Positions 32,200 through 45,464 of a stretch of DNA of 64,000 nt are shown here, piece by piece; position 1 is the first letter of the stretch; every line of letters begins with the position of its first letter. Source of the stretch: Parvularcula sp. LCG005 (GTDB lineage: Bacteria; Pseudomonadota; Alphaproteobacteria; Caulobacterales; Parvularculaceae); assembly GCF_032930845.1 (NCBI RefSeq), contig NZ_CP136758.1, positions 620,001 through 684,000 on the forward strand, given 5' to 3'. The notes below the pieces were generated by a model that did no database searches, was not told where the DNA came from, and was given only the letters and a program-made list of their open reading frames with translations. Made by a program: the position numbers and the translations under genes.

Positions 32200-32583
32200 A
32201 TGGTCGCAGATCAACTGAAAGACGCCTTGGTCGGTAGTGTCATTCGAATGACCACCGAGCTGTGCACTGAAGTGACGCGGACCTGCTGGTCCGATCCGGA
32301 CGATGTTTCCCTCGCTGATCGCAAGATGCGTATTCTATACGCCTACGAACGAAATGTAGAGAAATGTCTGGTCATGACCGAAAAATATCAATCCGGTTCG
32401 CTGAAAAGCCCTGCCGATGATGACGAAAAGCGCAAGCTCTTCGATCAACTGGTTCGCTATGCAAATCGCCTTGGGCAGGATGAGCTCGCTCGACGACTTC
32501 GAGAAGATCGCCCCCGGGAACGCGATATACGACTGGACCCTGTGGGCCCGGGACGATCAGCTGCCGGATCCGCAGAAGACTGA
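32200..32583 (+). CDS. GTA g1-like protein (candidate small terminase)
   Basis: A 127-residue, charged, helical protein at the position of RcGTA g1, which acts as the small terminase subunit. Helices such as 'VSLADRKMRILYAYERNVEKCLVMTEKY' and 'EKRKLFDQLVRYANRLGQDELARRLRE' could oligomerise. The last 34 residues are read out of frame over the terminase N terminus (104-base overlap) and are probably of little structural importance. The assignment rests on position and helical character, not on a recognised motif. The start has GGGAAC upstream. Confidence 0.5.
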   Translation: MVADQLKDALVGSVIRMTTELCTEVTRTCWSDPDDVSLADRKMRILYAYERNVEKCLVMTEKYQSGSLKSPADDDEKRKLFDQLVRYANRLGQDELARRLREDRPRERDIRLDPVGPGRSAAGSAED

Positions 32584-33739
32584 CTGGACCACGTGGCTGC
32601 TGATGGGCGGTCGCGGCGCGGGAAAGACGCGTGCCGGGGCCGAATGGCTGGCCGCGCAGGTCAGGGGCGGGGCGGCGCGTGTCGCGCTTGTCGGGGAAAC
32701 CTATGAGGATGCCAGAGAGGTGATGATCGATGGACCGTCGGGCCTCTGCGCGATCGGCAATCCTGCCGAGCGCCCGGTCTATGAGGCGTCACGTCACCGG
32801 CTGTCCTGGCCAAGCGGGGCGATCGGCCATGTGTTTTCCGCCGAAGACCCGGAGGGGCTGCGCGGCTTTCAGTTCGAAGCAGCGTGGGCGGATGAATTAT
32901 GCAAGTGGCGGCAGGCCGAGCAGGTCTGGAGCAATCTGCAGCTGGGCCTGCGTCTTGGTGACCGTCCACGGCAGGTGGTCACGACGACGCCAAGATCCAT
33001 GCCGCTGATGAAGCGCCTCCTGGCCGACAGACGCACTCTCGTTTCCCGGGCCACGTCGTTCGACAACAAGGCGCATCTGGCGGAAGCGTTCTTCACGGAG
33101 ATTGCGTCCACCTATGAGGGGACGGCCCTGGGTCGTCAGGAGCTATATGGTGAGATGGTGGAAGATCGCGCAGGCGCTCTTTGGTCGTGGCAGATGATCG
33201 AGGCAGCGCGAATTGCAAACGCCCCGCCACTGGATCGCATTGTCGTCGCCATCGACCCGCCCGTCACCAGTGGGCCGGATGCGGATGAATGTGGCATCAT
33301 CGTCGCCGGCGTCGCAGGGGAGGGCGCAGCGCGGACCGCGTATGTGCTCGCCGATGGAACGGTGCACGCGACCAGCGCGGCAATGTGGGCCGAGCGGGCA
33401 GTGGCGCTCTATCACGCGCACGGTGCCGATCGCATGATTGCAGAGGTCAATCAGGGCGGCGATCTGGTTGAAGAGATGATCCGACTGGCAGATCCCGCCG
33501 TGCCCATCCGTCAGGTCCGCGCGACCCGAAACAAGATGGTTCGCGCAGAGCCGGTATCGGCTCTCTATGAAAAAGGCCGTGTGCGCCATGTGGGTGAGTT
33601 TGCTGCGCTGGAAAGCCAGTTGACGGCCTTTACCGGCACGGGTCGCGAGAAAAGTCCCGATCGTCTCGACGCCCTTGTCTGGGCCCTGACTGATCTGATG
33701 CTTGGTCATCAGCAACAGCCTGCCATTCGCGTCCTTTGA
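32480..33739 (+). CDS. GTA terminase large subunit (g2)
   Basis: DNA-packaging motor, about 419 residues. The N-terminal ATPase has Walker A 'LMGGRGAGKTRAG', Walker B 'AAWADELCKW' and the coupling motif 'VVTTTPRSMPLMKRLL'. The C-terminal RNase H-like nuclease has 'VVAIDPPVTSGPDADECGIIVAG' and the closing acidic 'SPDRLDALVWALTDLM'. ATG 32480 (MSSLDDFEKIAP) is preferred because family similarity begins at 'YDWTLWARDDQLPD'. AGG directly abuts it, so coupling to g1 translation is likely. All catalytic acids are present. Confidence 0.93.
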   Translation: MSSLDDFEKIAPGNAIYDWTLWARDDQLPDPQKTDWTTWLLMGGRGAGKTRAGAEWLAAQVRGGAARVALVGETYEDAREVMIDGPSGLCAIGNPAERPVYEASRHRLSWPSGAIGHVFSAEDPEGLRGFQFEAAWADELCKWRQAEQVWSNLQLGLRLGDRPRQVVTTTPRSMPLMKRLLADRRTLVSRATSFDNKAHLAEAFFTEIASTYEGTALGRQELYGEMVEDRAGALWSWQMIEAARIANAPPLDRIVVAIDPPVTSGPDADECGIIVAGVAGEGAARTAYVLADGTVHATSAAMWAERAVALYHAHGADRMIAEVNQGGDLVEEMIRLADPAVPIRQVRATRNKMVRAEPVSALYEKGRVRHVGEFAALESQLTAFTGTGREKSPDRLDALVWALTDLMLGHQQQPAIRVL

Positions 33740-33750
33740 AGGAGAGAAAA

Positions 33751-34926
33751 ATGTTTGGATTGACCACCCGAAAGGGTGACAGCAGCCGTGCGCCCGAAGC
33801 TAAAGGAACCGTTCTGTCGGACTTGATCGCTCTTCATGGGATGGGCCAGCCCAGCTGGACCGGACGCGACAGTGCCAGCCTGACAACCAACGGGTTCGGT
33901 CGGAACGTCATCGCCTACAGGTGTGTACAGATGATTGCCGATGCCGCATCGGCGGTGCCGCTGATCCTGTGCCAGGCCGGTGAGCGTCAGTATGATCATC
34001 CACTTTGCCGGCTTTTGCGCAGTCCCAATCCGGACCAGACGGGTCAGGCACTGCTGGAGGAAGTGTATGGACATCTTCAAATCCACGGCAACGCCTATCT
34101 TGAAATCATCGACGGGGACCAAGGCGCGGCTGCCCTTTATTGCCTGCGGCCGGACAGGGTTCAGGTCCAGACCGGTCGTGATGGCTGGCCGTCAGCCTAT
34201 ACCTACGGCGCAGGCACGCACAAGCGGGTCATTTCTCGCCGCCCTGACGGCTCCATGCCTCTCATCCACCTGCGGCTGTTTAATCCGGGTGATGACCGAT
34301 ATGGCCAGGCCCCAATGCAGGTGGCGGGCAACGCGATCGACCTGCACAACACGGCTATGGCGTGGAACAAGTCGCTGCTCGACAATGCGGCCCGCCCCTC
34401 TGGCGCGCTGGTTTATCGAGGTGAAGCCGGGGCAGGACACCTCACTGGCGACCAGTTCGACCGCCTGAAGGCCGAGTTGAGCGAAACATTCCAAGGCGCG
34501 CGCCATGCGGGCCGACCGATGCTGCTCGACGGCGGGCTCGACTGGAAGCCCATGAGCTTGAGCCCGGCCGAGATGGATTTCATCGACCTGAAGAACAGCG
34601 CGTCGCGGGATATTGCGCTGGCCTTCGGTGTGCCGCCCATGCTGCTGGGGATTCCCGGTGACAACACCTATTCAAACTATCAGCAGGCGGTACTTGCGTT
34701 CTGGCGCCACACGATCCTGCCGCTGATCGGCAAGGTGGTCGCGGGCCTCAATCACGGGCTTGGTCTGTCAGACGTGGAGATCGGATTTGACGAGGAGCGT
34801 ATTGACGCCCTGGCAGATGGCCGCCTTGCCCGTCTTGACCTTCTTCTTTCCAGTGATGTTCTGACGTCAGAGGAAAAGAGGCTGGCACTTGGCTATCCGG
34901 CTCTGCCAGAAGGCGGCACTCAATGA
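33751..34926 (+). CDS. GTA portal protein (g3, HK97 family)
   Basis: A 391-residue HK97-type portal. It forms the dodecameric ring through which DNA enters the head. It has 'NVIAYRCVQMIADAASAVPLIL', 'HGNAYLEIIDGD', and the family-diagnostic 'SASRDIALAFGVPPMLLGIPGDNTYSNYQQAVLAFWRHTILPL'. Start at ATG 33751 with AAGGAGAG 6-7 bases upstream; the track of the longer frame begins inside the terminase stop. It overlaps g3.5 by four bases. Confidence 0.93.
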   Translation: MFGLTTRKGDSSRAPEAKGTVLSDLIALHGMGQPSWTGRDSASLTTNGFGRNVIAYRCVQMIADAASAVPLILCQAGERQYDHPLCRLLRSPNPDQTGQALLEEVYGHLQIHGNAYLEIIDGDQGAAALYCLRPDRVQVQTGRDGWPSAYTYGAGTHKRVISRRPDGSMPLIHLRLFNPGDDRYGQAPMQVAGNAIDLHNTAMAWNKSLLDNAARPSGALVYRGEAGAGHLTGDQFDRLKAELSETFQGARHAGRPMLLDGGLDWKPMSLSPAEMDFIDLKNSASRDIALAFGVPPMLLGIPGDNTYSNYQQAVLAFWRHTILPLIGKVVAGLNHGLGLSDVEIGFDEERIDALADGRLARLDLLLSSDVLTSEEKRLALGYPALPEGGTQ

Positions 34927-35168
34927 GCGCCAGCTGGGACGGCAGGCTGTCTGTCGCGATCAGTGGCGCGATGTTGGCCCAGACCGTGGCCGCGCTGCTC
35001 TGGGCTGGCGCTGCGGCCGAGCGGCTGGACCAGTTGCAGGTCCGTATCGCTCGCTCCGAAGATATCGCTGAGCGGGTCGCAAGACTGGAAGAGCAGGGGG
35101 ACCATATTCAATCCACCCTCATCCGTATTGAACGCAAGCTTGATGACAATTCAGGAGGGCTGCGGTGA
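34923..35168 (+). CDS. GTA g3.5-like small protein
   Basis: An 81-residue protein with an N-terminal hydrophobic helix (VAISGAMLAQTVAALLWAGAAA) followed by a coiled-coil region (ERLDQLQVRIARSEDIAERVARLEEQGDHIQSTLIRIERKL). It occupies the slot between portal and protease where RcGTA has orf g3.5. Function is not known. Overlaps g3 by four bases and g4 by one to four bases. Confidence 0.75.
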   Translation: MSASWDGRLSVAISGAMLAQTVAALLWAGAAAERLDQLQVRIARSEDIAERVARLEEQGDHIQSTLIRIERKLDDNSGGLR

Positions 35169-35683
35169 TGGGACTTGCTGATCCATCTCCCGTGTCGGAG
35201 CCCGATGCGAGCCTTGTAGAAATCGAGGGCTATGCTGCGATCTTTGGCAGTGTCGACCTGTCCGGGGATATCGTCATGCCGGGTGCCTTCAGCTCAGTCA
35301 CCAGGCTGTCGAAGAATCTTATCCCCGATCCCGCGTCCCGTGTCATGATGCTTTATCAGCATGCGGTAGATCAGCCGATTGGCCGCTGGACCGAGATGAG
35401 GGAGGATCATCATGGACTGTTCGTTCGCGGACACTTGTTCGCTGACACAGCGCGCGGCGGTGATCTTTACCACCTGCTCAGGCGCGGCGCGATCGACGGT
35501 TTGTCGATTGGCTTCAAACCGGAACGGGTACGACGCAACAGGGCCGGGCAACGGGAGTTGCACAAGGTCGCGCTATGGGAAGTATCGATCGTGACGTTTC
35601 CCATGGCCCCCCAGGCGAGGATCACCCGTGTCAGCGCGCCGGGTGAACGACTTCCCCGCAATCTTCTTTCCACCACCCTATGA
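35168..35683 (+). CDS. GTA prohead protease (g4, HK97 family)
   Basis: Serine protease that matures the capsid by cleaving the N-terminal scaffold (delta) region. From ATG 35168 it has 171 residues. It shows 'IEGYAAIFGSVDLSGDIVMPGAF', 'VMMLYQHAVDQPIGRWTEM' with the catalytic His, and 'GAIDGLSIGFKP' with the catalytic Ser. 'ELHKVALWEVSIVTFPM' follows and carries the conserved Glu. Length and motif spacing are normal for HK97-type proteases. Confidence 0.92.
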   Translation: MGLADPSPVSEPDASLVEIEGYAAIFGSVDLSGDIVMPGAFSSVTRLSKNLIPDPASRVMMLYQHAVDQPIGRWTEMREDHHGLFVRGHLFADTARGGDLYHLLRRGAIDGLSIGFKPERVRRNRAGQRELHKVALWEVSIVTFPMAPQARITRVSAPGERLPRNLLSTTL

Positions 35684-35691
35684 GGAAAAAC

Positions 35692-36891
35692 ATGAGTTTG
35701 GAAACCAAGGCCCAGTCCGACGCCCCGATGAAATCGGCAATGCACGACCTTCTTTATACCTTCGAGCAGTTCAAGGATGCCAATGACCAGCGTCTGGCAG
35801 AAATTGAAAAGCGCGGCCACGAAGATGGTCTGCTGACGGAGAAAGTCGATCGGCTGAACAGCGTCGTGGCCGAACAGAAGGCGGCGATTGAGCGGATGTC
35901 CGTTCTGAATGCTCGCCCGGCGCGTGAGGGGACCGCTTTGGTCGCTCCAACTGAAGCCAAACAGGCCTTTGATGGCTATATGCGCTCCGGCCTGATGGCG
36001 GCTCCTTCGATCAAGTCGATTGCCGCAAGCGATACGGATGGCGCCGTTATCGCCCCGGTGGAAACGGCACAGATGATCGACAGTGGGCTGATGGCCATTT
36101 CTCCCATCCGCCAGATTGCGACCGTCCGCCAGATCAGTGGCCACACCTATCGCAAGCCGTACCAGCCAGGCCAGTTCGCGGCTGGTTGGGCCGGTGAGAC
36201 AGCCTCACGCCCGGAAACAGCCACCCCGTCGCTGCAGGCGCTCGATTTTCCGGCCATGGAGCTCTATGCCATGCCTGCCACGACGCAGGCCCTGCTTGAG
36301 GACAGCATCGTTGACGTCAGTCAGTGGATTGCTGACGAGGTGCAGGTCGCTTTCGCAGAACAGGAAACCACAGCCTTCATCACCGGCAACGGGACCAGCC
36401 GCCCGCGCGGCTTCCTTGACTACACCACGGCCGATGACAGTGTCCGTGACAGTGATGAGCTGGGGACCGTCTCCAGCAGTGGCGCGTCGATCAGTGGCGA
36501 TGACCTGATCAACCTCATCTACACGCTGCCCCAGGCCTATCGTGCCAATGGCCGGTTCGTCATGAACCGCGGTACGGCCGCCGCCGTCCGTAAGCTGAAA
36601 GATGCCGACGGGAATTATCTCTGGTCTCCGGGCATCAGCGCTGGTCAGCCATCGACCCTGCTCGGCTATGCGGTGACGGAGGCGGAGGACATGTCCGATG
36701 TTGCCAATGCTGCGACACCGATCGCCTTTGGTGACTTCGCCCGCGGGTATCTGATTGTGGACCGGGCCGGCATTCAGGTGCTGCGTGATCCGTTCTCGGC
36801 CAAACCTTACGTCCTGTTCTGCACGACCAAGCGTGTCGGCGGCGGCGTTCAGGACTTCTCCGCCATCAAGTTCCTGAAAATGAGCGCCTGA
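35692..36891 (+). CDS. GTA major capsid protein (g5, HK97 fold)
   Basis: A 399-residue HK97-fold major head protein. The first about 100 residues form a charged coiled coil (FEQFKDANDQRLAEIEKRGHEDGLLTEKVDRL), the delta domain removed by the g4 protease. The mature shell protein includes 'YRKPYQPGQFAAGWAGETASRPETATPSL', 'MPATTQALLEDSIVDVSQWIADEV' and 'AFITGNGTSRPRGFLDY'. The ATG at 35692 follows TGAGGAAA. A strong intrinsic terminator lies 11 bases after the stop, unlike the other GTA gene junctions. Confidence 0.95.
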   Translation: MSLETKAQSDAPMKSAMHDLLYTFEQFKDANDQRLAEIEKRGHEDGLLTEKVDRLNSVVAEQKAAIERMSVLNARPAREGTALVAPTEAKQAFDGYMRSGLMAAPSIKSIAASDTDGAVIAPVETAQMIDSGLMAISPIRQIATVRQISGHTYRKPYQPGQFAAGWAGETASRPETATPSLQALDFPAMELYAMPATTQALLEDSIVDVSQWIADEVQVAFAEQETTAFITGNGTSRPRGFLDYTTADDSVRDSDELGTVSSSGASISGDDLINLIYTLPQAYRANGRFVMNRGTAAAVRKLKDADGNYLWSPGISAGQPSTLLGYAVTEAEDMSDVANAATPIAFGDFARGYLIVDRAGIQVLRDPFSAKPYVLFCTTKRVGGGVQDFSAIKFLKMSA

Positions 36892-36901
36892 TTTCAGGCA
36901 C

Positions 36902-36933
36902 AGGTGCCCGGATATTTCGGGCACCTCCTTTTT
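36902..36933 (+). terminator. Intrinsic terminator between capsid gene g5 and connector gene g6
   Basis: Perfect 9-bp stem AGGTGCCCG / CGGGCACCT (36902-36910, 36918-36926) with a 7-base loop, followed by CC and a run of five T. This is a canonical rho-independent terminator placed inside an otherwise continuous GTA operon, 11 bases after the capsid stop and 22 bases before the g6 start. Confidence 0.85.
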
Positions 36934-36954
36934 CCCCAAAAGAAGAGTGCTGTC

Positions 36955-37512
36955 ATGTTCACACAGGTGACGCCACCGGCGACCTTGCCCATTCCGCTGG
37001 ACGCGTTGAAAGCGGCCCTGCGCATTGATCGCGATGATGAAGACGCGCTGCTCGATCATGTTCAGCGAACAGCCGTGACGGTCATTGAGCGTCGTCTGGA
37101 TCGAGCGCTGTTGCGCCAGAGTTGGTCCCTGAGCGTGCAGGCGCTGCCCCAGGGGCCGCTCGCCCTGCGCCCCGGCCAGGTCGTCAGCATTGACAGTGTT
37201 GAGGCGACCTATGGCGCGGCGACGCCGTTCACGCTTCGCGAAGACGCGATCAAAAAACGACTTGGCGATGACGCCTGGGTCTGCGTTGAGCTGCCCTACA
37301 CCCAAGGCACAGATACATTTTCCAGCCTGACCATTTCCTTCAGCGCAGGTGCTGAGGATGCAGGCGCGTTGCCGGCCGACCTTCTCCACGCGGTCTATTT
37401 GCTGTCCGCTCACTATTACGAAGAACGCGAGCTGTTCCGGCGCGACCGTTATGTCCCTGTTCCCTTATCCGTAGACGCATTGATTGCGCCCTACAGGCTG
37501 GTGCGACTATGA
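36955..37512 (+). CDS. GTA head-tail connector (g6)
   Basis: A 185-residue adaptor of the HK97 gp6/SPP1 gp15 type: an N-terminal helical DALKAALRIDRDDEDALLDHVQRTAVTVIERRLDRAL, a beta-rich middle, then 'LLHAVYLLSAHYYEERELFRRD', all standard for phage connector/'phiE125 gp8' family proteins. ATG 36955 with AGAAGAG upstream is the start; the longer frame begins inside the terminator. It attaches under the portal. Confidence 0.85.
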   Translation: MFTQVTPPATLPIPLDALKAALRIDRDDEDALLDHVQRTAVTVIERRLDRALLRQSWSLSVQALPQGPLALRPGQVVSIDSVEATYGAATPFTLREDAIKKRLGDDAWVCVELPYTQGTDTFSSLTISFSAGAEDAGALPADLLHAVYLLSAHYYEERELFRRDRYVPVPLSVDALIAPYRLVRL

Positions 37513-37823
37513 TCGGTGATCTGAGGGCGCAGGTGACGGTGCTGATGCCAGCGCCGATTACCGATGCCGGGGGCGGGTTCGAGCCCTCCTATGATGCTGG
37601 CACAAACGTCGATGCAAACGTGGAAAGCCTTTCCAGTCGGCGAACATCTGTCGCTGGACGTGACCGGTTCCGTCGCCGCTATCGCCTAACCATGCGGTAT
37701 CAGGAGGCGATCGGGTTTTCGGCACGTATTGTCTATCGCGGAGTCGTTCACCGGATCACGGACATTCGTGCGGGTGGTGACCGTCAGCGTACGCACACCC
37801 TGACGATGGAGGAGATCGTATGA
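37509..37823 (+). CDS. GTA head closure/stopper protein (g7)
   Basis: A 104-residue beta-rich protein of the phage head-tail adaptor (SPP1 gp16-like) family: 'AQVTVLMPAPITDAGGGFEPSYDAG' followed by strands 'RRRYRLTMRYQEAIGFSARIVYRGVVHRITDIRAGGDRQRTHTLTMEEI'. It sits between connector and tail terminator as expected. Overlaps g6 and g8 by four bases each. Confidence 0.82.
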   Translation: MIGDLRAQVTVLMPAPITDAGGGFEPSYDAGTNVDANVESLSSRRTSVAGRDRFRRRYRLTMRYQEAIGFSARIVYRGVVHRITDIRAGGDRQRTHTLTMEEIV

Positions 37824-38242
37824 CGCTGCCAGCTTCATGGGCGGTTCAGGTGGCCCTATATGACCTGCTACGAAACGATGCGGAATTGCAGGCTGTGGCG
37901 TCAACGGGCGTCCAGATCCACGACAGCGTGCCTGACGAGCCGACCTATCCCTTCATCACGGTCGGGGAGGCGAAAATATCCGACTATCCCGGACTGGATG
38001 GTGCACGTGAGCACGACATCAGACTGCACATCTATTCAAAATGGGGCGGCCGACAGGAAGTGCGCACCATCACCGATCTGTTGCAGGCGCGCCTCCACGA
38101 CGCGGTCCTGCCGCTTGACGGTCATCGTCTATCGCAGTGCCGCTTTGCCTTCGCCGATATCTTCCGGCCGGTGGAGGCCGAAACGTTTCACGGGGTGGCG
38201 CGCTTCCGCCTCGTCACCGAACCATTGACCCAGACAGTCTAA
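37820..38242 (+). CDS. GTA tail terminator (g8, DUF3168)
   Basis: A 140-residue DUF3168 protein. It shows 'QVALYDLLRNDAELQAVASTGVQIHDSVPDEPTYPFITVGEAKISDY' and 'HDIRLHIYSKWGGRQEVRTITDLLQARLHD', the signature of the family, which caps the tail tube at the head end. Overlaps g7 by four bases; 12 bases before g9. Confidence 0.88.
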   Translation: MTLPASWAVQVALYDLLRNDAELQAVASTGVQIHDSVPDEPTYPFITVGEAKISDYPGLDGAREHDIRLHIYSKWGGRQEVRTITDLLQARLHDAVLPLDGHRLSQCRFAFADIFRPVEAETFHGVARFRLVTEPLTQTV

Positions 38243-38254
38243 GGAGGCGGGCAC

Positions 38255-38671
38255 ATGGCCATACTTCGCGGCAAGGACCTGCTGCTCACACTAAGAATGG
38301 AAACCGGTGAATTCGTGCCGGTCGGGGGCTTGCGGACGAAAACGTTCTCCTTGAGCGCCGGTCTCGTCGATATCACCCACGCCGACAGCGGTCTGTGGCG
38401 AACACTCCTGCCATCAGGTGGCCTGCGCCAGGCCAATGTGGCGGGCAGTGGGGTCTTCATCGACGATGCTGCCGCCATTCGTGCGCGAACGCTGTTTTTC
38501 AGTGGTGAGGCGGCTGAGTGGCAGCTCGTCATGCCGGGCAGCGGCACGCTGACCGGGCCATTTCAGATCACCAATCTCGACCTGTCCGGCGATTACCGCG
38601 GCGAAGCCGGCTTTTCCCTTTCGCTGTCATCCGCGGGCGAAATTCTGTTCGAAGCTGAGGATCTGACATGA
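38255..38671 (+). CDS. GTA major tail tube protein (g9)
   Basis: A 138-residue phage major tail protein (TIGR02126-like): 'MAILRGKDLLLTLRMETGEFVPVGGLRTKTFSL', 'VDITHADSGLWRTLLPSGGLRQANVAGSGVFIDD', and the C-terminal 'GEAGFSLSLSSAGEILFEA'. It polymerises into the tail tube. Strong AGGAGG ribosome site 7 bases before the ATG, the best in the cluster, in keeping with high copy number. Overlaps g10 by four bases. Confidence 0.9.
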   Translation: MAILRGKDLLLTLRMETGEFVPVGGLRTKTFSLSAGLVDITHADSGLWRTLLPSGGLRQANVAGSGVFIDDAAAIRARTLFFSGEAAEWQLVMPGSGTLTGPFQITNLDLSGDYRGEAGFSLSLSSAGEILFEAEDLT

Positions 38672-39009
38672 CCAGTCTGCGCAGTGAAGCTCATATCGAT
38701 GTTGACGGCGTCAAACTGCCGTTGAAACTGACACTGGGGGCGCTTTCCGAAATCGAGGAAGCGCTGGGTATCGATACCCTGACCGATCTTGCGTTTCGCC
38801 TTGGTAATCCGTCTGCGGCGGAACTGATCCGCATTCTGGGTATCCTGGCAAAGGCGGCGGGAGATGAGGATAGTGATCGGCGTGTGCGGAACGGGACGAT
38901 CAATCTCCGAGAGGCACTTGGCGCGATTGCCATGCTCTTCCGCGAAATCCTGACCGGGGAGGCGCCGGGAAAGCCGATCCTCGGTCCGACCGCTGGCGCG
39001 GCTGGCTGA
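38668..39009 (+). CDS. GTA tail assembly chaperone g10
   Basis: A 113-residue 'gene transfer agent family' protein: 'VKLPLKLTLGALSEIEEALGIDTLTDLAFRLGNPSAAELIRILGILAKAAG' (gpG-like chaperone fold). The last 15 residues are Gly/Ala/Pro-rich and end at TGA 39009. Codons GGA-AAG at 38968-38973 form a -1 slippery site with the preceding G, so a fraction of ribosomes probably continue into the g10.1 frame. It works on the tape measure protein g11 during tail assembly. Confidence 0.88.
   Translation: MTSLRSEAHIDVDGVKLPLKLTLGALSEIEEALGIDTLTDLAFRLGNPSAAELIRILGILAKAAGDEDSDRRVRNGTINLREALGAIAMLFREILTGEAPGKPILGPTAGAAG
38967..38973 (+). other. Predicted -1 programmed frameshift site GGGAAAG
   Basis: Heptamer G GGA AAG in the g10 zero frame (X XXY YYZ form). 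It is identical to the slippery heptamer of the bacteriophage lambda G-T tail gene. After a -1 slip reading resumes at 38973 (Ala codon GCC) in the frame of g10.1, which is open to 39179. Confidence 0.75.
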
Positions 39010-39179
39010 CGCTCGGTCTGCGTTCACTGGCATTGAAAGTGGATGAGTTCTGGGCGCTGGGCGCTGCTGAATGGTCATTGCTCGTTGGCGAAGTCGTACG
39101 CCCGCGTGATCCCGACATGACCCGCGCCGATCTGCTGCAACTGTTAAACGGCGTGTCCCGTGGAGATGAACCTAAATGA
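38973..39179 (+). CDS. GTA g10.1 (tail assembly chaperone T-like part), probably made by -1 frameshift from g10
   Basis: A frame of 68 codons with the g10.1/DUF2376 pattern: 'WRGWLTLGLRSLALKVDEFWALGAAEW' (Trp/Gly-Leu then DxFWxLxxxE) and 'DMTRADLLQLLNGV'. No ATG or GTG precedes the conserved Trp-Leu-Leu part in this frame between about 38907 and 39036; only CTG codons and a TTG at 39033 occur, and the first GTG is 39039, inside the domain. Translation therefore most likely enters by the slip at GGGAAAG, giving a g10-g10.1 fusion of about 170 residues. The stop overlaps the g11 ATG. The reading was done by hand. Confidence 0.75.
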   Translation, partial: ADPRSDRWRGWLTLGLRSLALKVDEFWALGAAEWSLLVGEVVRPRDPDMTRADLLQLLNGVSRGDEPK

Positions 39180-39706
39180 GTGAAACCATACGTGTGGAAA
39201 TCGACCGAGATCTCTTCCGCGGTGACCTGCAGGGGTTGCGCGAAGACCTGCAGGCAACAATCGATGAAGACCTCGTCCCCTTGGCGGAAAATGTCCAAGG
39301 CCTGTTCCAGGACATCGGGCAGTCGCTGGTCAGCGAACTGACCCGTGCGGCGGAGAAGGGACGTCTGTCGGTTGACAGCATTGTCGACGCCATCCTGAAG
39401 GATGTCGCGGCGCTGGCAGTCGATCAGGTGGTCCGCCAACCGATCAATGGCGTGTTAAACCAGATATTCGGCGGCACCCGTGCGGGGGGCGGCGCGGTCC
39501 TGCCGGGGCAGTCCTATCTCGTCGGTGAACAGGGGCCCGAGATCTTTCGGCCAGCGACCGCTGGGCAGGTGACAAGCCGGGTCCAACCGACGGCTGTCAC
39601 CGTGACGATATCTGGCGGCTCGGGGCGCGACAGCCTTGGACGGTCGGACAGCCAGATTGCCAGCCATGTCGCGCGAAAATTGGGAAAGGCTCATCGCAAT
39701 GCCTGA
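39176..39706 (+). CDS. GTA short tape measure protein (g11)
   Basis: A 176-residue protein. The helical N-terminal half (LQGLREDLQATIDEDLVPLAENVQGLFQDIGQSLVSELTRAAEKG) and the phage tape-measure C-terminal motif 'NQIFGGTRAGGGAVLPGQSYLVGEQGPEIFRPATAGQV' identify it. RcGTA g11 is also short (about 220 residues), so this is the GTA type and not a truncated phage tape measure; tail length should be correspondingly short. Overlaps g10.1 by four bases and g12 by 8 bases. Confidence 0.88.
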   Translation: MSETIRVEIDRDLFRGDLQGLREDLQATIDEDLVPLAENVQGLFQDIGQSLVSELTRAAEKGRLSVDSIVDAILKDVAALAVDQVVRQPINGVLNQIFGGTRAGGGAVLPGQSYLVGEQGPEIFRPATAGQVTSRVQPTAVTVTISGGSGRDSLGRSDSQIASHVARKLGKAHRNA

Positions 39707-40334
39707 AGGTTTTCATGATGTTCAGTTCCCGGTCGATATTGCTCTTGGATCACGCGGTGGACCGGTTCGCCGGACCGATGTGGTCAGTCTGGCCTCGGGT
39801 GCCGAGCGACGCACCGCGCGGTGGTCCGCCTCGCGTCGCCGCTTCAATGCGGGCTATGGTGTCAGGAGCATGGCCGACATGCACCGTCTACTGGCGTTTT
39901 TTGAGGCGCGAGAGGGTCGCCGGTTTGCCTTTCGCTGGCGCGATCCTTTCGATCATAGATCAGGCGGTGCGACTGAGGAGGTGACGGCGCTCGATCAGCC
40001 GCTTGGCGTGGGTGACGGTTCAACCAGCCTGTTCCAGCTGACGCGCCGCTATCAGAGCGGCGTTCAGACCACGCAGCGGATGATTGCCCTGCCGTGCAGC
40101 GGTACGGTACGGATTGCCCAGGACGGCTTTGAGCTGTCGGAGGGGCAGGACTTCACTGTCAATACTCTGACGGGCGTCGTCCAGATCACCACACCCCCGG
40201 CCAGCGGAGCTGTTCTGACAGCCGGATTTCTGTTCGACATCCCCGCCCGTTTTGACACGGACGAATTGATCCTGTCGCTCGAGCCGGGCGGGGCGGACAT
40301 TCCCGATATTCCGATCGTTGAGGTGCGTTTCTGA
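39699..40334 (+). CDS. GTA distal tail protein (g12, DUF2460/TIGR02217)
   Basis: A 211-residue protein of the TIGR02217 family: 'FHDVQFPVDIALGSRGGPVRRTDVVSLASGAERRTARWSASRRRFNAGYGVRSMADMHRLLAFFEAREGRRFAFRWRDPFDHRS' at the N terminus and the C-terminal 'SLEPGGADIPDIPIVEVRF'. It forms the hexameric distal tail ring. ATG 39699 is chosen by homology. Overlaps g13 by one base. Confidence 0.92.
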   Translation: MPEGFHDVQFPVDIALGSRGGPVRRTDVVSLASGAERRTARWSASRRRFNAGYGVRSMADMHRLLAFFEAREGRRFAFRWRDPFDHRSGGATEEVTALDQPLGVGDGSTSLFQLTRRYQSGVQTTQRMIALPCSGTVRIAQDGFELSEGQDFTVNTLTGVVQITTPPASGAVLTAGFLFDIPARFDTDELILSLEPGGADIPDIPIVEVRF

Positions 40335-41218
40335 TGCTGCCCGTTGATGCCCATACGGAACAGGCGCTCAGCGCCGCTGCCGCCTCGTTATGTACATGTT
40401 GGCGGATCACGCGGACCGATGGCGTCGAGATCGGTGTCACTGACCATGATCGAGACATTGAATTTACTGGCACTGTCTTCCGCTCGGGCGACGGGGCGGA
40501 TGGAACCGCGCTCGCCAGTGGAGCTGACCTTGCGCCGGACAATGCGGATCTCATGGGCATTTTGTCCAGCGACGTGCTGGGTGATGATGATATCGACCAG
40601 GGCCGGTATGACGAGGCACGCATCGACATCTGGCGGGTCGACTGGACGGATCCAGAGGCACGCCTTCTCGTCAAATCCGGCACTATCGGGCGGATTGAGC
40701 GGTCAGGGGCGGGTTACCGGGCTGAGTTTCGCAGCCTGAAGCACTATCTCGACCAGGTGGTTGGCCGCGTTTACGGCCGCCAGTGCGATGCCCGTCTTGG
40801 CGACCGGCGCTGTGGCGTCGATCTGACGGATGGTGCGTACACGGCGCAGGCACAAATCGTGTCCGAGAGCGCGCGCGACCTGTCCATCAATCAAGACCCT
40901 GACCATCCCGCAGGCTGGTTCACGGGCGGCACGGTGGAGGTTCTGGACGGCCCCCTCGCGGGGACACGAGCGACCATCAGGGAACATGCCGTGGCCGGGA
41001 ACATAGCCATCCTGTCCCTATGGGACAGCCTGGCGGCGCCGGTCGCGGCAACAACGCTACTGCGGGTAACAGCGGGCTGCGACAAGCGTCTGTCGACCTG
41101 TCAGTCTAAATTTGCCAATGCCGTCAATTTTCGCGGCTTCCCACATATTCCTGGCAGTGACATCCTGACCCGCTATCCCGGACCGGGGGGCGATCGGGAA
41201 GATCGCGAGACAGCATGA
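40334..41218 (+). CDS. GTA baseplate hub protein (g13, DUF2163)
   Basis: A 294-residue DUF2163/BR0599-family protein: 'CTCWRITRTDGVEIGVTDHDRDIEFTGTVFRSGDG', 'DDIDQGRYDEARIDIWRVDWTDPEARLLVKSGTIG', and the Cys-containing 'RVYGRQCDARLGDRRCGVDL' and 'TAGCDKRLSTCQSKFANAVNFRGFPHIPG'. RcGTA g13 is reported to bind an Fe-S cluster in the baseplate; the four Cys (QCDAR, RRCG, GCDK, TCQSK) are present here. Overlaps g14 by four bases. Confidence 0.92.
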   Translation: MLPVDAHTEQALSAAAASLCTCWRITRTDGVEIGVTDHDRDIEFTGTVFRSGDGADGTALASGADLAPDNADLMGILSSDVLGDDDIDQGRYDEARIDIWRVDWTDPEARLLVKSGTIGRIERSGAGYRAEFRSLKHYLDQVVGRVYGRQCDARLGDRRCGVDLTDGAYTAQAQIVSESARDLSINQDPDHPAGWFTGGTVEVLDGPLAGTRATIREHAVAGNIAILSLWDSLAAPVAATTLLRVTAGCDKRLSTCQSKFANAVNFRGFPHIPGSDILTRYPGPGGDREDRETA

Positions 41219-41667
41219 CGCGGGACGATCTTGATCGCGTGATCGTGTCTGAAGCCCTCAGCTGGTTAGGCACACCCTATCGCCATCAGGCGTCGGCGAG
41301 AGGTCAGGGAACGGACTGCCTTGGCCTCGTCCGCGGTGTATGGCGGTATCTGCATGGGGCTGAACCCCAACCCGTTCCGCCCTATCTGCCGCATTGGGAC
41401 CGGGGCGAGGGGGACGAATTGCTGCTGGACGCCGCGCATCGTTATCTCATCCCCTGTGATGCCGACCGCGTTCGCGCCGGTGAGGTGGTGGTGTTCCGCA
41501 TGGTGCCGGGCGCCCCGGCCAAACATTGCGGCATAATGATCAGCGAGAGCGCCTTTGTTCACGCCTATGCGGGGCGGCAGGTTGTCCGGTCCCGTTGGAC
41601 CCCGTTCTGGTCATCCCGCCTGGCCGCGCGTTTTTGTTTTCCGTTGACTGAAGGAGAGGCGTCATGA
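41215..41667 (+). CDS. GTA cell-wall peptidase (g14, NlpC/P60)
   Basis: A 150-residue NlpC/P60 peptidase: 'WLGTPYRHQASARGQGTDCLGLVRGVWRYL' carries the catalytic Cys, and 'APAKHCGIMISESAFVHAYAGRQVV' carries the His and adjacent polar residue. It sits in the tail tip and opens the recipient's peptidoglycan during DNA entry. Overlaps g13 and g15 by four bases each. Confidence 0.93.
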   Translation: MTRDDLDRVIVSEALSWLGTPYRHQASARGQGTDCLGLVRGVWRYLHGAEPQPVPPYLPHWDRGEGDELLLDAAHRYLIPCDADRVRAGEVVVFRMVPGAPAKHCGIMISESAFVHAYAGRQVVRSRWTPFWSSRLAARFCFPLTEGEAS

Positions 41668-44600
41668 GCCAGCAACTGGTACAGACCGGTCAGGTTGTCG
41701 TCAGCTCAGCCGAGTCGTTGGGATCTCAACTGAGCGCTGCGCTGACCTCAAGCGTGACGAATTCCGCGGTCGCCATGGCCCAGAATGCGTTGTTCGGGCC
41801 CGTCAAGCGACGCTCACAGGGCCCCCGACGGGAAGAAATCCGTCTGCTGACAGCGGCCGAGGGCGTGCCTGTCCGGCGGGTTTTCGGGTTGAACCGCGTT
41901 GCCGGTCAGATCATCTGGATCACGCCCTTCAAGGAAACCACTGAGGTGACACGGTCATCGAGCGGCAGCAAGGGCGTTCGCCGAATCGTCGAGGAGGAGC
42001 ATACGGCCTATCGGTACTCCGTTTCGATGGCGATCGCGCTGGGCGAAGGGGTAATACAGCGTATCGGCCGGGTCTGGGCTGATGGTCAGCCGCTATCGCT
42101 GGCGGATCTCAATGTGCGCTTCTATCGCGGCACGGAGGATCAACTGACTGACCCCCTCATTGAGGTGGTTGAGGCTGACCCGCCTGCCTACCGGGGTATC
42201 AGCTACATTGTGTTCGAAGACCTTGATCTTGGCCCATTCGGCAATCGGGTGCCCCAGGTCAATTTTGAGGTCGAGCGTCCGATACCCTCCAGCGACGACC
42301 GCTCACTGGAACTGCAGGCGCGAGCCATCACACTCATCCCCGGATCGGGCGAGGCCGTGTATCATACCGAACCGGTACTGACGGAACGGGTCGAGGGTGT
42401 GACCCGCGCCGAGAATGTCCACGGCAATATGGGCGGTACGGATTTCAGCGCAGCCGTCAGTCACATGACGGCGACTCTGCCCAATATTCAGGCGGTAGAA
42501 TTGATCGTCTCGTGGTTCGGCACGGATTTGCGCGCGGGGGAATGTCGCATCGAACCGCGGGTCGAAACCAACGACAAAATACAACTGCCAGACGCTTGGA
42601 GCGTGGCCGATTGGACGCGCGGCACCGCCAACGAGGTGTCGCGGCTTGGCGATGGCAATCTTGCCTATGGCGGTACGCCTTCTGATGAAGGTGTCCGGCA
42701 ATCCATCCGCGACCTACAACAGCGTGGCCTCGACGTTGTCTTCTATCCCTTCGTGCTGATGGATATTCCGGCGGACAACAATCTGCCCGATCCGATCGGC
42801 GGCGCGGTGCAGCCGGCCTACCCCTGGCGGGGGCGGATCACCGTGGCTGACCGGAACAGCACTGACCAAACGCCTGCGGCTCGCGCGCAAATCGAGGCCT
42901 TTGCGGCCCGGTACCGCGTCATGATTTTGCACTATGCCACCCTTTGCGCAGAAATAGGGGGCGTTCACGCCTTTCTGATCGGATCAGAACTCCGTTCTTT
43001 GAGCAATGTGCGTGATGAGACGGGCGCCTTCATCTTTGTGGACTTCCTGGTCAGTCTGGCGGCGGAGGTGCGCACCATTCTCGGACCGGACGTGCTGATT
43101 TCCTACGCAGCGGACTGGTCCGAGTATAGCAATTACCGCCCAGCCGATGGAACCGGTGATGTGCTGTTTCATCTGGATTCTCTGTGGGCATCGCCGAATA
43201 TCGATTTTATCGGCATCGACAACTACATGCCGCTGGCCGACTGGCGGGCAGGTGCAGATCATCTGGATGCGGCGGAGGGGTACAGATCAACGTATGACGA
43301 TGAGTACCTCGCCGGCAATATCCGCGGCGGCGAAGGATATGACTGGTACTATGCCAGTGACGAAGACCGACTGGTACAGATCCGCACGCCCATCGCCGAT
43401 ACTGCCCACGGGGAAGACTGGGTTTTTCGGTACAAGGACCTGTGGTCATGGTGGTCACAGGTCCACCATGACCGGCCCCGCGGCACGCGCCGTGTGACGC
43501 CGACGGCATGGGTACCTGAGAGCAAGCCCATCTGGATGACCGAGCTTGGCTGCTCCGCCACAGATAAGGGCGCGAACCAGCCCAATCTGTTCTTTGATCC
43601 CAAATCGTCTGAAAGCGGACGACCCTATTTCTCGACCGGTGAACGCGACGATATGATCCAGCGCCGCTTCATCGAGGCGCATCTGAATTTCTGGACCGAT
43701 GATGAGAACAATCCGGTGTCCGCCGTCTACGGCGGACCGATGGTCGCGAGCGATCGCATCTTCCTCTACACTTGGGACGCGCGGCCGTTCCCTGATTTCC
43801 CACTCAGGCGCGACATCTGGGGCGATGCGGATAACTGGACCTATGGGCACTGGCTCAATGGTCGGGCGGGGCGGGTACCGCTGGGCGAGCTCATCACCCA
43901 TCTGGCGCGTGAGGCGGGTGTGCCGGCGGTGGATGCCACGGCCTGTCAGAGCCTCGTGCTTGGTTATCAGTTGGCGGGACCAATGGCTGCGCGGGACGCC
44001 ATTGAGCCGTTGATCGACGTCTATCAGCTTGATGCCGTAGAGCGGGCGGGTGTGCTGATCGTTCGGCCGCGCACGGGTTATCCCGATCACCACATTACGA
44101 CTGACGGCTTCGTCGACGATGGCGGACCCATCGTAACCCGCACACGCGCCCAGGAAGCGGACCTGCCGGCGCGGTTGTCCTTCGCGTATACGGATGGGTT
44201 ATCGGACTATCGCGGCGGTGTGGCGGAAGTGACGGAGTCCGTCGCCCGGAACAGTCGCGCGATGTTTGTCGATACGGCACTCGTGCTGGAATCCGGCGAG
44301 GCGGAGGGGCGAGCCGCGGCCCTGTTGGCCGAAGCGCGGGCAATGCGGAACACCGTGAGTTTTGGTCTGGGCCCGGATCAGTTCCGGGTTGAGGCGGCGG
44401 ATGTCCTGTCTGTGACGGGCGATGAGCTGTCAGGCACCTTCCGGGTGACTGAACTGACCGACGGCCTGTGGCGCCAGATCGAAGGCGTACAGACCGACCC
44501 TGGCCTCTACCAGCCGCGCTTTACGGGTCTGTCGGGCACGATCGCGGCTGCGCCGCGCGTTGCCGGGCCGCCAGTGGTGGCCTTTCTTGATATTCCCGTC

Positions 44601-45464
44601 CTGCCTGAGGGAGAGGAGAGGGGTGTGCTGCACGTCGCGGCCTATGCCTCGCCCTGGCCGGGAGCGGTGGCCATTCACGATGGCGATGATGGGCTGGGTG
44701 AGCGGTTGGGTCTTGTATCCGCGCCAAGCGTGATGGGTCGGCTGGAAGCGGCGCTGCCGCCGGGGCCGACCTCTCGCTGGGACCACGGCACAGAGATCGC
44801 GCTCCGGCTCTTTGACGGCGGGCTGGCGGCGTTGGACAATCTTGCTGTTCTGCGCGGCGCCGGTCGCATTGCGGTCGAGGGGACGGACGGCGACTGGGAA
44901 ATTCTTGGCTACAGGGACGCGACTTTAAGGGAAGATGGGGTGTGGCAGCTCTCCAGCCTGTTACGGGGTCTGCGCGGCACGGAAGCTGAGGCAGCAACAG
45001 GCGCCCCGGCGGGCAGCCGATTGGTCGTCCTCTCCGACGCACAGACGGTGCAATCCCTGCCGCCGGACCTGTTCGGGACGGAGGTGCGATGGCAGGCCGG
45101 GCCTGTCGGTACGGCGCCGGGGGCCTTTCCCTACCGCACCTTCGATATCAGCCTGACCGGTGCCAGCGCACGGCCCTTCGCGCCAGCGCATTTGCGGGCG
45201 ACCACGTCGGATGACGGCGTCGCCCTGCGCTGGATACGCCGGACGCGCATCGGCGGCGATAATTGGCAGATCGAAGAGGTGCCGCTGGGCGAAACGGCCG
45301 AGCAATACCGCGTCCGCGCCTATGATATCGCAGGTATTTTGGTTGAGGAGCAGGTCGTCGCCGTCCCTGAAGCGCTTCTCACGGCTGACACGATCCACTC
45401 GGTCAGCGTCGCGCAAGGGTCCAGTCTCTATGGATATGGTCGCGAAACCCGCATTTTCTTGTAA
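41664..45464 (+). CDS. GTA megatron/host-specificity protein (g15)
   Basis: A 1266-residue tail-tip protein of the RcGTA g15 type. The N-terminal hub part contains 'VPVRRVFGLNRVAGQIIWITPFKETTEVTR'. A GTA TIM-barrel-like domain follows from about residue 420 to 720 ('YRVMILHYATLCAEIGGVHAFLIGSELRSL', 'YAADWSEYSNYRPADGTGDVLFHLDSLWASPNIDFIGIDNYMPLADW', 'PIWMTELGCSATDKGANQPNLF'). A phage-tail-3 type domain comes next, and beta-rich fibronectin-like C-terminal domains end near 'VDDGGPIVTRTRAQEADLPARL...'. It penetrates or contacts the recipient surface. Last gene of the cluster; 93 bases before the next gene. Confidence 0.93.
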   Translation: MSQQLVQTGQVVVSSAESLGSQLSAALTSSVTNSAVAMAQNALFGPVKRRSQGPRREEIRLLTAAEGVPVRRVFGLNRVAGQIIWITPFKETTEVTRSSSGSKGVRRIVEEEHTAYRYSVSMAIALGEGVIQRIGRVWADGQPLSLADLNVRFYRGTEDQLTDPLIEVVEADPPAYRGISYIVFEDLDLGPFGNRVPQVNFEVERPIPSSDDRSLELQARAITLIPGSGEAVYHTEPVLTERVEGVTRAENVHGNMGGTDFSAAVSHMTATLPNIQAVELIVSWFGTDLRAGECRIEPRVETNDKIQLPDAWSVADWTRGTANEVSRLGDGNLAYGGTPSDEGVRQSIRDLQQRGLDVVFYPFVLMDIPADNNLPDPIGGAVQPAYPWRGRITVADRNSTDQTPAARAQIEAFAARYRVMILHYATLCAEIGGVHAFLIGSELRSLSNVRDETGAFIFVDFLVSLAAEVRTILGPDVLISYAADWSEYSNYRPADGTGDVLFHLDSLWASPNIDFIGIDNYMPLADWRAGADHLDAAEGYRSTYDDEYLAGNIRGGEGYDWYYASDEDRLVQIRTPIADTAHGEDWVFRYKDLWSWWSQVHHDRPRGTRRVTPTAWVPESKPIWMTELGCSATDKGANQPNLFFDPKSSESGRPYFSTGERDDMIQRRFIEAHLNFWTDDENNPVSAVYGGPMVASDRIFLYTWDARPFPDFPLRRDIWGDADNWTYGHWLNGRAGRVPLGELITHLAREAGVPAVDATACQSLVLGYQLAGPMAARDAIEPLIDVYQLDAVERAGVLIVRPRTGYPDHHITTDGFVDDGGPIVTRTRAQEADLPARLSFAYTDGLSDYRGGVAEVTESVARNSRAMFVDTALVLESGEAEGRAAALLAEARAMRNTVSFGLGPDQFRVEAADVLSVTGDELSGTFRVTELTDGLWRQIEGVQTDPGLYQPRFTGLSGTIAAAPRVAGPPVVAFLDIPVLPEGEERGVLHVAAYASPWPGAVAIHDGDDGLGERLGLVSAPSVMGRLEAALPPGPTSRWDHGTEIALRLFDGGLAALDNLAVLRGAGRIAVEGTDGDWEILGYRDATLREDGVWQLSSLLRGLRGTEAEAATGAPAGSRLVVLSDAQTVQSLPPDLFGTEVRWQAGPVGTAPGAFPYRTFDISLTGASARPFAPAHLRATTSDDGVALRWIRRTRIGGDNWQIEEVPLGETAEQYRVRAYDIAGILVEEQVVAVPEALLTADTIHSVSVAQGSSLYGYGRETRIFL

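Follow-up and report, generated by a model that had tools for sequence, protein, structure and literature searches.

The g10-g10.1 junction of a gene transfer agent (GTA) cluster is predicted, with high confidence, to operate as a -1 programmed frameshift of the lambda G/GT type. This prediction draws on directly observed features: the sequence and frame relation of the junction, its missing start codons, the protein families involved, synteny, conservation at the level of individual codons, and an alternation with separate genes. The window, by which we mean the whole stretch of 64,000 nucleotides that was analysed, contains the following features.

32417-45464, plus strand: RcGTA-type head-tail gene cluster g2-g15, with a g1 candidate from 32200 (NCBIfam matches)
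38255-38671, plus strand: g9, major tail (tube) protein, directly upstream of g10 (PF06199, E 5e-35; TIGR02126)
38668-39009, plus strand: g10, tail assembly chaperone 1 (gpG-like part), 113 amino acids (PF11836 GTA-gp10, E 3.1e-10)
38877-39179, plus strand: -1 open frame (previous stop at 38874, own stop at 39177-39179)
38967-38973, plus strand: slippery heptamer G GGA AAG, in which GGA (38968-38970) and AAG (38971-38973) are g10-frame codons preceded by G
38973-39179, plus strand: putative g10.1 extension that follows the slip, with 68 codons ahead of the stop (both fusion and length predicted)
38991-39146, plus strand: PF09550 Phage_TAC_6 domain, chaperone 2 (gpT-like part)
39176-39706, plus strand: g11, tape-measure-like protein (PF09718, E 7.9e-5, just over the cut-off; PHROG tape measure families)

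To judge by its sequence, this is a gene transfer agent of the RcGTA type, and the cluster occupies one chromosomal place in Parvularculaceae. Its genes were numbered by order and family. Among the scanned genes of the g3-g15 range, NCBIfam matches identified portal, protease, HK97 capsid, connector and an Rcc01695-family distal tail protein, followed by TIGR02217, TIGR02218 (GTA hub), TIGR02219 and NF048004 (GTA_megatron) at the tail end, as well as an NlpC peptidase; for g2, no NCBIfam family matched at E 1e-5. Such a head-tail cluster with GTA-type tail end genes is what characterises the RcGTA type. The cluster genes detected by tblastn in 11 segments from other Parvularculaceae genomes are collinear with those of the window, and in eight of these segments the window's upstream and/or downstream host genes, named by eye as YcgN or penicillin-binding protein before the cluster and DnaJ or DegP after it, lie close by. 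Collinear genes and shared host flanks in 8/11 segments point to a GTA-type cluster that has been kept vertically. No host genes of the window were found near the cluster in L154, L156 and L158, two of which are contigs of 8,963 and 14,738 bases. The accessible part of PMC11409702 already places RcGTA-like clusters in the Parvularculales. IMG/VR lists many g10 loci of the GTA type under viral contigs (L239-L318), and several of these are identical at the junction to loci from bacterial genomes, for example L243 to L094 and L251 to L193. A tblastn search of annotated phages with g10 and the g10.1 fragment as queries gave no match, and neither did a comparison of the g10 fold (a model of the L019 homologue, mean pLDDT 82) with the PDB at E <= 0.001.

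The junction lies between the genes for the major tail protein and the tape-measure-like protein, which is the location of G/GT-type frameshifts, and the ATG of g11 overlaps the g10.1 stop by four bases (ATGA). An X XXY YYZ heptamer near the 3' end of the upstream frame is a further feature of this type, and the earlier note's placement of GGGAAAG in the g10 frame, as a G followed by GGA-AAG at 38968-38973, proved exact to the base. It had also stated that a -1 slip enters the g10.1 frame and that this frame is open to 39179; both points were confirmed, and the -1 reading that begins GKADPRSDRW matches PF09550 with an E value of 1.7e-7. The downstream reading frame therefore overlaps g10 in the -1 relation, and it does so with no start of its own. 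As the same note had observed, neither ATG nor GTG stands ahead of the g10.1 domain. Over the longer list of ATG, GTG, TTG, CTG, ATT, ATC and ATA, not one occurs in the -1 frame between the upstream stop and 39006, where a CTG, already within the domain, is the earliest; TTG at 39033 and GTG at 39039 follow downstream of it. This absence weighs against a rival explanation, that g10.1 is a separate gene reached by a non-standard start or by translational coupling and that the heptamer is coincidental, a reading that we regard as very unlikely.

Two further in-frame GGGAAAG heptamers occur in the window, one in g2 (32620) and one near the end of g11 (39682), and coordinate arithmetic shows that the -1 frame of the latter is not the frame of g12. 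Both look like chance occurrences. Their presence makes the motif alone weak proof, and it cautions against calling frameshifts from a motif only.

The PF09550 model was searched in genomes of the window's genus, family, order and class, and was found in 2/10, 35/62, 185/299 and 45/385 of them, respectively. A scan of genome contigs with the window's g10 as a single protein yielded no confirmed relative; the same scan with A1, a g10 alignment profile built from 24 frameshift-type loci, which may for that reason favour loci of this kind, yielded 241 relatives, of which the best 80 were kept. With A1, a g10 match was obtained in 36 of the 62 Parvularculaceae genomes, and 29 of these 36 have an in-frame GGGAAAG with an open -1 frame beyond it, in agreement with the earlier note, which had called for such a comparison of junctions. 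GGGAAAG is missing from the other seven (G014, G016, G017, G025, G026, G040, G056). Among the 34 fetched Parvularculaceae loci with g10, GGGAAAG stands at the junction in 26 and GGGAAAA in one more, against a background outside the junction, in the same 34 loci, of three in-frame GGGAAAG in 28,259 codon positions. In L026, which belongs to the 29, a GTG overlapping the stop of g10 is present as well. Another Parvularculaceae locus, L018, has an unusually long stretch after the slip, of 137 codons, with a C-terminal extension.

Conservation at the slip site extends to the choice of codon. We aligned 26 Parvularculaceae g10 genes, comprising 25 of the 26 fetched GGGAAAG loci (a truncated one was left out) and that of genome G001, and the codons CCG-GGA-AAG are identical in all 26. 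GGA is a rare glycine codon in these loci (~11% of Gly codons), and among 33 conserved columns other than Met and Trp only one further column, a GGC for Gly, is uniform. Mean amino-acid identity across the alignment is 0.53 and mean identity at four-fold third bases 0.57, so that the signal is kept better than neighbouring synonymous sites (26/26 vs 0.57), as expected of a G/GT-type site. In L028, where the codon ahead of the Gly is one for Arg, the heptamer is retained. Among relatives, the linker that leads to the g10.1 domain differs in length. In the model of the L019 homologue, the tail that bears the site is predicted to be disordered. A GGA codon fixed in 26/26 genes is hard to reconcile with a coincidental heptamer in front of a separate g10.1 gene. 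The same data bear on transcriptional rather than ribosomal slippage as the source of the fusion, from which a mixed product would likewise be expected. The heptamer is conserved in codon phase, and its runs of GGG and AAA are, from general knowledge, short for polymerase slippage; we consider this origin scarcely credible.

It could also be argued that g10.1 is a decaying, out-of-frame remnant of a GTA that no longer works. The window's match to PF09550, at 31.1 bits, is weaker than that of most Parvularculaceae loci, and seven of the ten genomes in its genus are without a g10 match, which would suit such decay. However, the -1 frame is open all the way to its stop in the overlap with g11, and the cluster retains its genes and its place. 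The PF09550 match in 26/26 family loci lends no independent support on this point, since those loci were found with the PF09550 model; G001, G059 and G060, by contrast, are among the 29 genomes, were found via g10 alone and were missed by the Pfam model at E 0.001. Their -1 frames after the heptamer still match a g10.1 profile built from other loci, with E values of 9e-9, 6e-7 and 9e-9 when these three sequences were searched. Taken with these matches, decay appears highly improbable. As an observation on the genus itself, only three of the ten genomes gave a g10 match, though completeness is 90% or more, with little contamination, in eight of the ten; repeated loss of the GTA in this genus, or divergence beyond the reach of the profile, may account for this.

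The relation between heptamer and start codon was followed over 246 loci, where a locus was called start-less if no ATG, GTG or TTG lay within the 60 bases that lead up to the g10.1 domain. Of 61 start-less loci, 55 have an in-phase GGGAAA or CCCTTT and six have neither, whereas 185 loci with a start divide into eight with one of these motifs and 177 without (Fisher p 5e-39, a value uncorrected for kinship; the loci are related, so the counts are not independent). Heptamers were scored only where g10.1 stands in the -1 relation to g10, which applies to 61/61 start-less loci and to 148 of the 185 with a start, the others being +1 (35 loci) or in the same frame (two). When any X XXY YYZ within the -1-related loci is admitted, the counts are 56/61 start-less loci vs 13/148 with a start. 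Judged from these sequences, heptamer and start codon appear largely to exclude each other. A g10 tree of 245 rows, based on the 97 model columns that precede the slip, has many weak branches and is poorly resolved; it shows 15 state changes, where 200 shuffles average 61, and only three independent pairs are supported, with the heptamer going with the missing start in 1.5 of them on average and against it in 0.

The six start-less loci with neither motif (L011, L061, L073, L074, L247, L305) are all in the -1 relation; L074 has AAACCCT, and the other five have no X XXY YYZ at all. L093 has GGGAAAA with no g9, g11 or g12 match around it, and is probably another element. The expected setting, g9 upstream and g11 or g12 downstream, is present in 28 of the 31 start-less GGGAAA loci. 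A separate g10.1 gene with a non-standard start would find some room in the 21 of 55 start-less heptamer loci that have an ATC, ATT or CTG somewhere in the last 60 nt, but the other 34 lack even near-cognate starts over that distance. The distance from the opening of the -1 frame to the heptamer is just 6 to 12 bases in seven of the 31 GGGAAA loci and only 3, 6 or 9 bases in three of the 24 CCCTTTN loci, which leaves hardly any room in that frame for a start further upstream.

The second motif, CCCTTTN, is found in 24 start-less loci at the very start of the g10.1 domain, where it encodes the Pro-Phe just before Trp. Twelve of these loci come from genomes of other families or from unclassified proteobacterial records (L062, L063, L066-L068, L075, L078, L085, L197, L203, L206, L233) and twelve from IMG/VR (e.g. 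L244, L270, L271, L279). CCC TTT is used for this Pro-Phe in 24/25 start-less loci vs 3/15 with a start, and the seventh base, over all 26 CCCTTT loci (two of them with a start), is C in 12, G in eight, T in five and A in one. The flanking genes again fit, with g9 upstream and g11 or g12 downstream in 23/24 loci. From its sequence and position, CCCTTTN is a candidate -1 shift site of GTA-like clusters that would form a second class beside GGGAAAG. Shift sites of the CCCTTTN kind for tail genes were absent from the literature matches listed.

Where g10.1 has a start, the arrangement looks like that of two separate genes. All 84 g10 loci fetched from sister families f2 (19), f3 (23), f4 (11) and f5 (31) have a start codon for g10.1, which overlaps the g10 stop by four bases in 53 of them; this speaks for a separate gene at the window's junction too. 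Named records in which g10.1 has a start come from Caulobacteraceae, Hyphomonadaceae, Maricaulaceae and Robiginitomaculaceae, among others. The earlier note had named homologues with a good start and without a heptamer as evidence against a frameshift. Such homologues do exist, in other families and in a few Parvularculaceae. Within the latter, L006, L007 and L021 form a clade of one genus (SH-aLRT 98) in which the PGK tail is missing, g10 ends at the would-be slip, and a g10.1 ATG overlaps the g10 stop (ATGA); because these loci are without the slippery tail itself, they fit the frameshift idea. Five other loci (L088, L190, L212, L213, L217) have GGGAAAG or GGGAAAC, then a g10 stop within a few bases and an overlapping TTG, GTG or ATG, and their sequences make them possible intermediates, in either direction, between the frameshift and the separate genes. 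Taken together, the conservation within the family and the alternation of heptamer with start support what the earlier note had proposed, namely a g10-g10.1 fusion parallel to gpG/gpGT.

We found no accompanying stimulator for the predicted frameshift. A stimulatory RNA structure is an optional feature of the G/GT type and is not known to be defining for lambda. The stem that the earlier note had suggested looking for after 38973 was not seen: three stretches of the window were folded and gave z-scores of -0.45, -0.26 and -0.92, all above -1. The mean fold z was -0.82 over the 31 start-less GGGAAA loci and -0.41 over the 24 CCCTTT loci, with two loci below -2 in each set, and an alignment of 15 Parvularculaceae junctions contained no consensus base pair. 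With window folds, locus z-scores and junction alignment all negative, a conserved stimulatory stem was rejected. GGAG-type words occur no more than 30 nt upstream of the motif in 28/31 GGGAAA and 21/24 CCCTTT loci, at a spacing of 2 to 23 nt among the GGGAAA matches listed. In ten of the 31 GGGAAA loci, the window among them, a GGAGG ends exactly 4 nt before the heptamer, a spacing shorter than is usual for -1 stimulators. As the positions of these words vary, a conserved Shine-Dalgarno-like stimulator was not accepted.

The closest known system is the G-T pair of phage lambda, whose slippery heptamer is GGGAAAG, the same as in the window. The two junctions also share the -1 direction, the location between major tail and tape measure genes, and a start-less second frame, although lambda is a replicating phage and the window holds a chromosomal GTA-type cluster. 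The window's proteins belong to PF11836 and PF09550, and the likeness to gpG and gpT is drawn from heptamer, direction and gene order. According to the part of PMC5009743 available to us, G_GGA_AAG is highly shift-prone in E. coli, and in the lambda model the tape measure is bound by short chaperones in large numbers and by few long ones, whose extension recruits the tail tube subunit. RcGTA has the same g10 Pfam family and the same neighbouring GTA families as the window. However, g10.1 is listed there as a gene of its own in the accessible section of PMC9765227, whereas in the window it is start-less and joined by a predicted -1 shift; the excerpt of PMC11409702 names g10 as tail chaperone 1 of RcGTA and g10.5 as tail chaperone 2. 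Frameshifting has been measured in an HK97-type tail chaperone cluster, where two fs-genes gave 6% and 7% (PMC3711429, partial text), while that at the window's junction is predicted from sequence.

Other mentions in the literature are more distant. The available portion of PMC8601537 mentions a tail chaperone frameshift of R. capsulatus phages, and that of PMC10299305 a proposed +1 shift in the hydrolase of a Wolbachia GTA-like element. The terms 'frameshift', 'chaperone' and 'g10' do not appear in the RcGTA structure paper PMC7296036, nor do 'frameshift' and 'chaperone' in the accessible text of the Caulobacter GTA paper PMC9632790. A search of the open-licence literature found no report of a g10-g10.1 frameshift, although one may exist in print beyond it. 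The mechanism itself is known; what appears to be new is the GTA setting, together with the family-wide conservation, the second heptamer and the way in which frameshift and separate genes alternate. We know of no frameshifting measurement for any GTA junction.

The arrangement in the window enables us to propose a model in which we infer slippage, its rate and the roles of both products. Most ribosomes on g10 would stop at 39007-39009 and release the 113-amino-acid chaperone 1. At G GGA AAG (38967), a minority would have their P- and A-site tRNAs re-pair one base back, on GGG AAA, after which translation in the -1 frame would run to 39179 and generate a g10-g10.1 fusion of 102 + 68 = 170 amino acids. 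The short form, like gpG, would cover the tape measure protein (g11), and the g10.1 domain of the long form, which would be rare, would bring in the tail tube protein (g9), as with gpGT; these roles for g10, g11 and g9 are suggested by gene order and family names.

A wider scenario, which we offer tentatively and would place somewhat short of an even chance, is that the chaperone dosage of alphaproteobacterial GTAs has been switched between a GGGAAAG slip, a CCCTTTN slip and separate overlapping genes. The frameshift would then be the phage-like, ancestral state, the separate genes of RcGTA and the Caulobacteraceae would be conversions that followed domestication, and conservation of the slip signal would be a fingerprint of GTAs under selection for tail assembly.

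If the predicted frameshift is borne out, it would mean that a hallmark of tail assembly in siphophages is shared by a particle domesticated by its host. Gene calls that require a start will miss g10.1 here, and in G001, G059 and G060 it is the -1 frame after the heptamer that supplies it. The slip signal could serve as a sequence marker for GTAs that are still selected for tail assembly, and the natural series of loci with frameshift, both or separate genes would make the need for a chaperone ratio testable.
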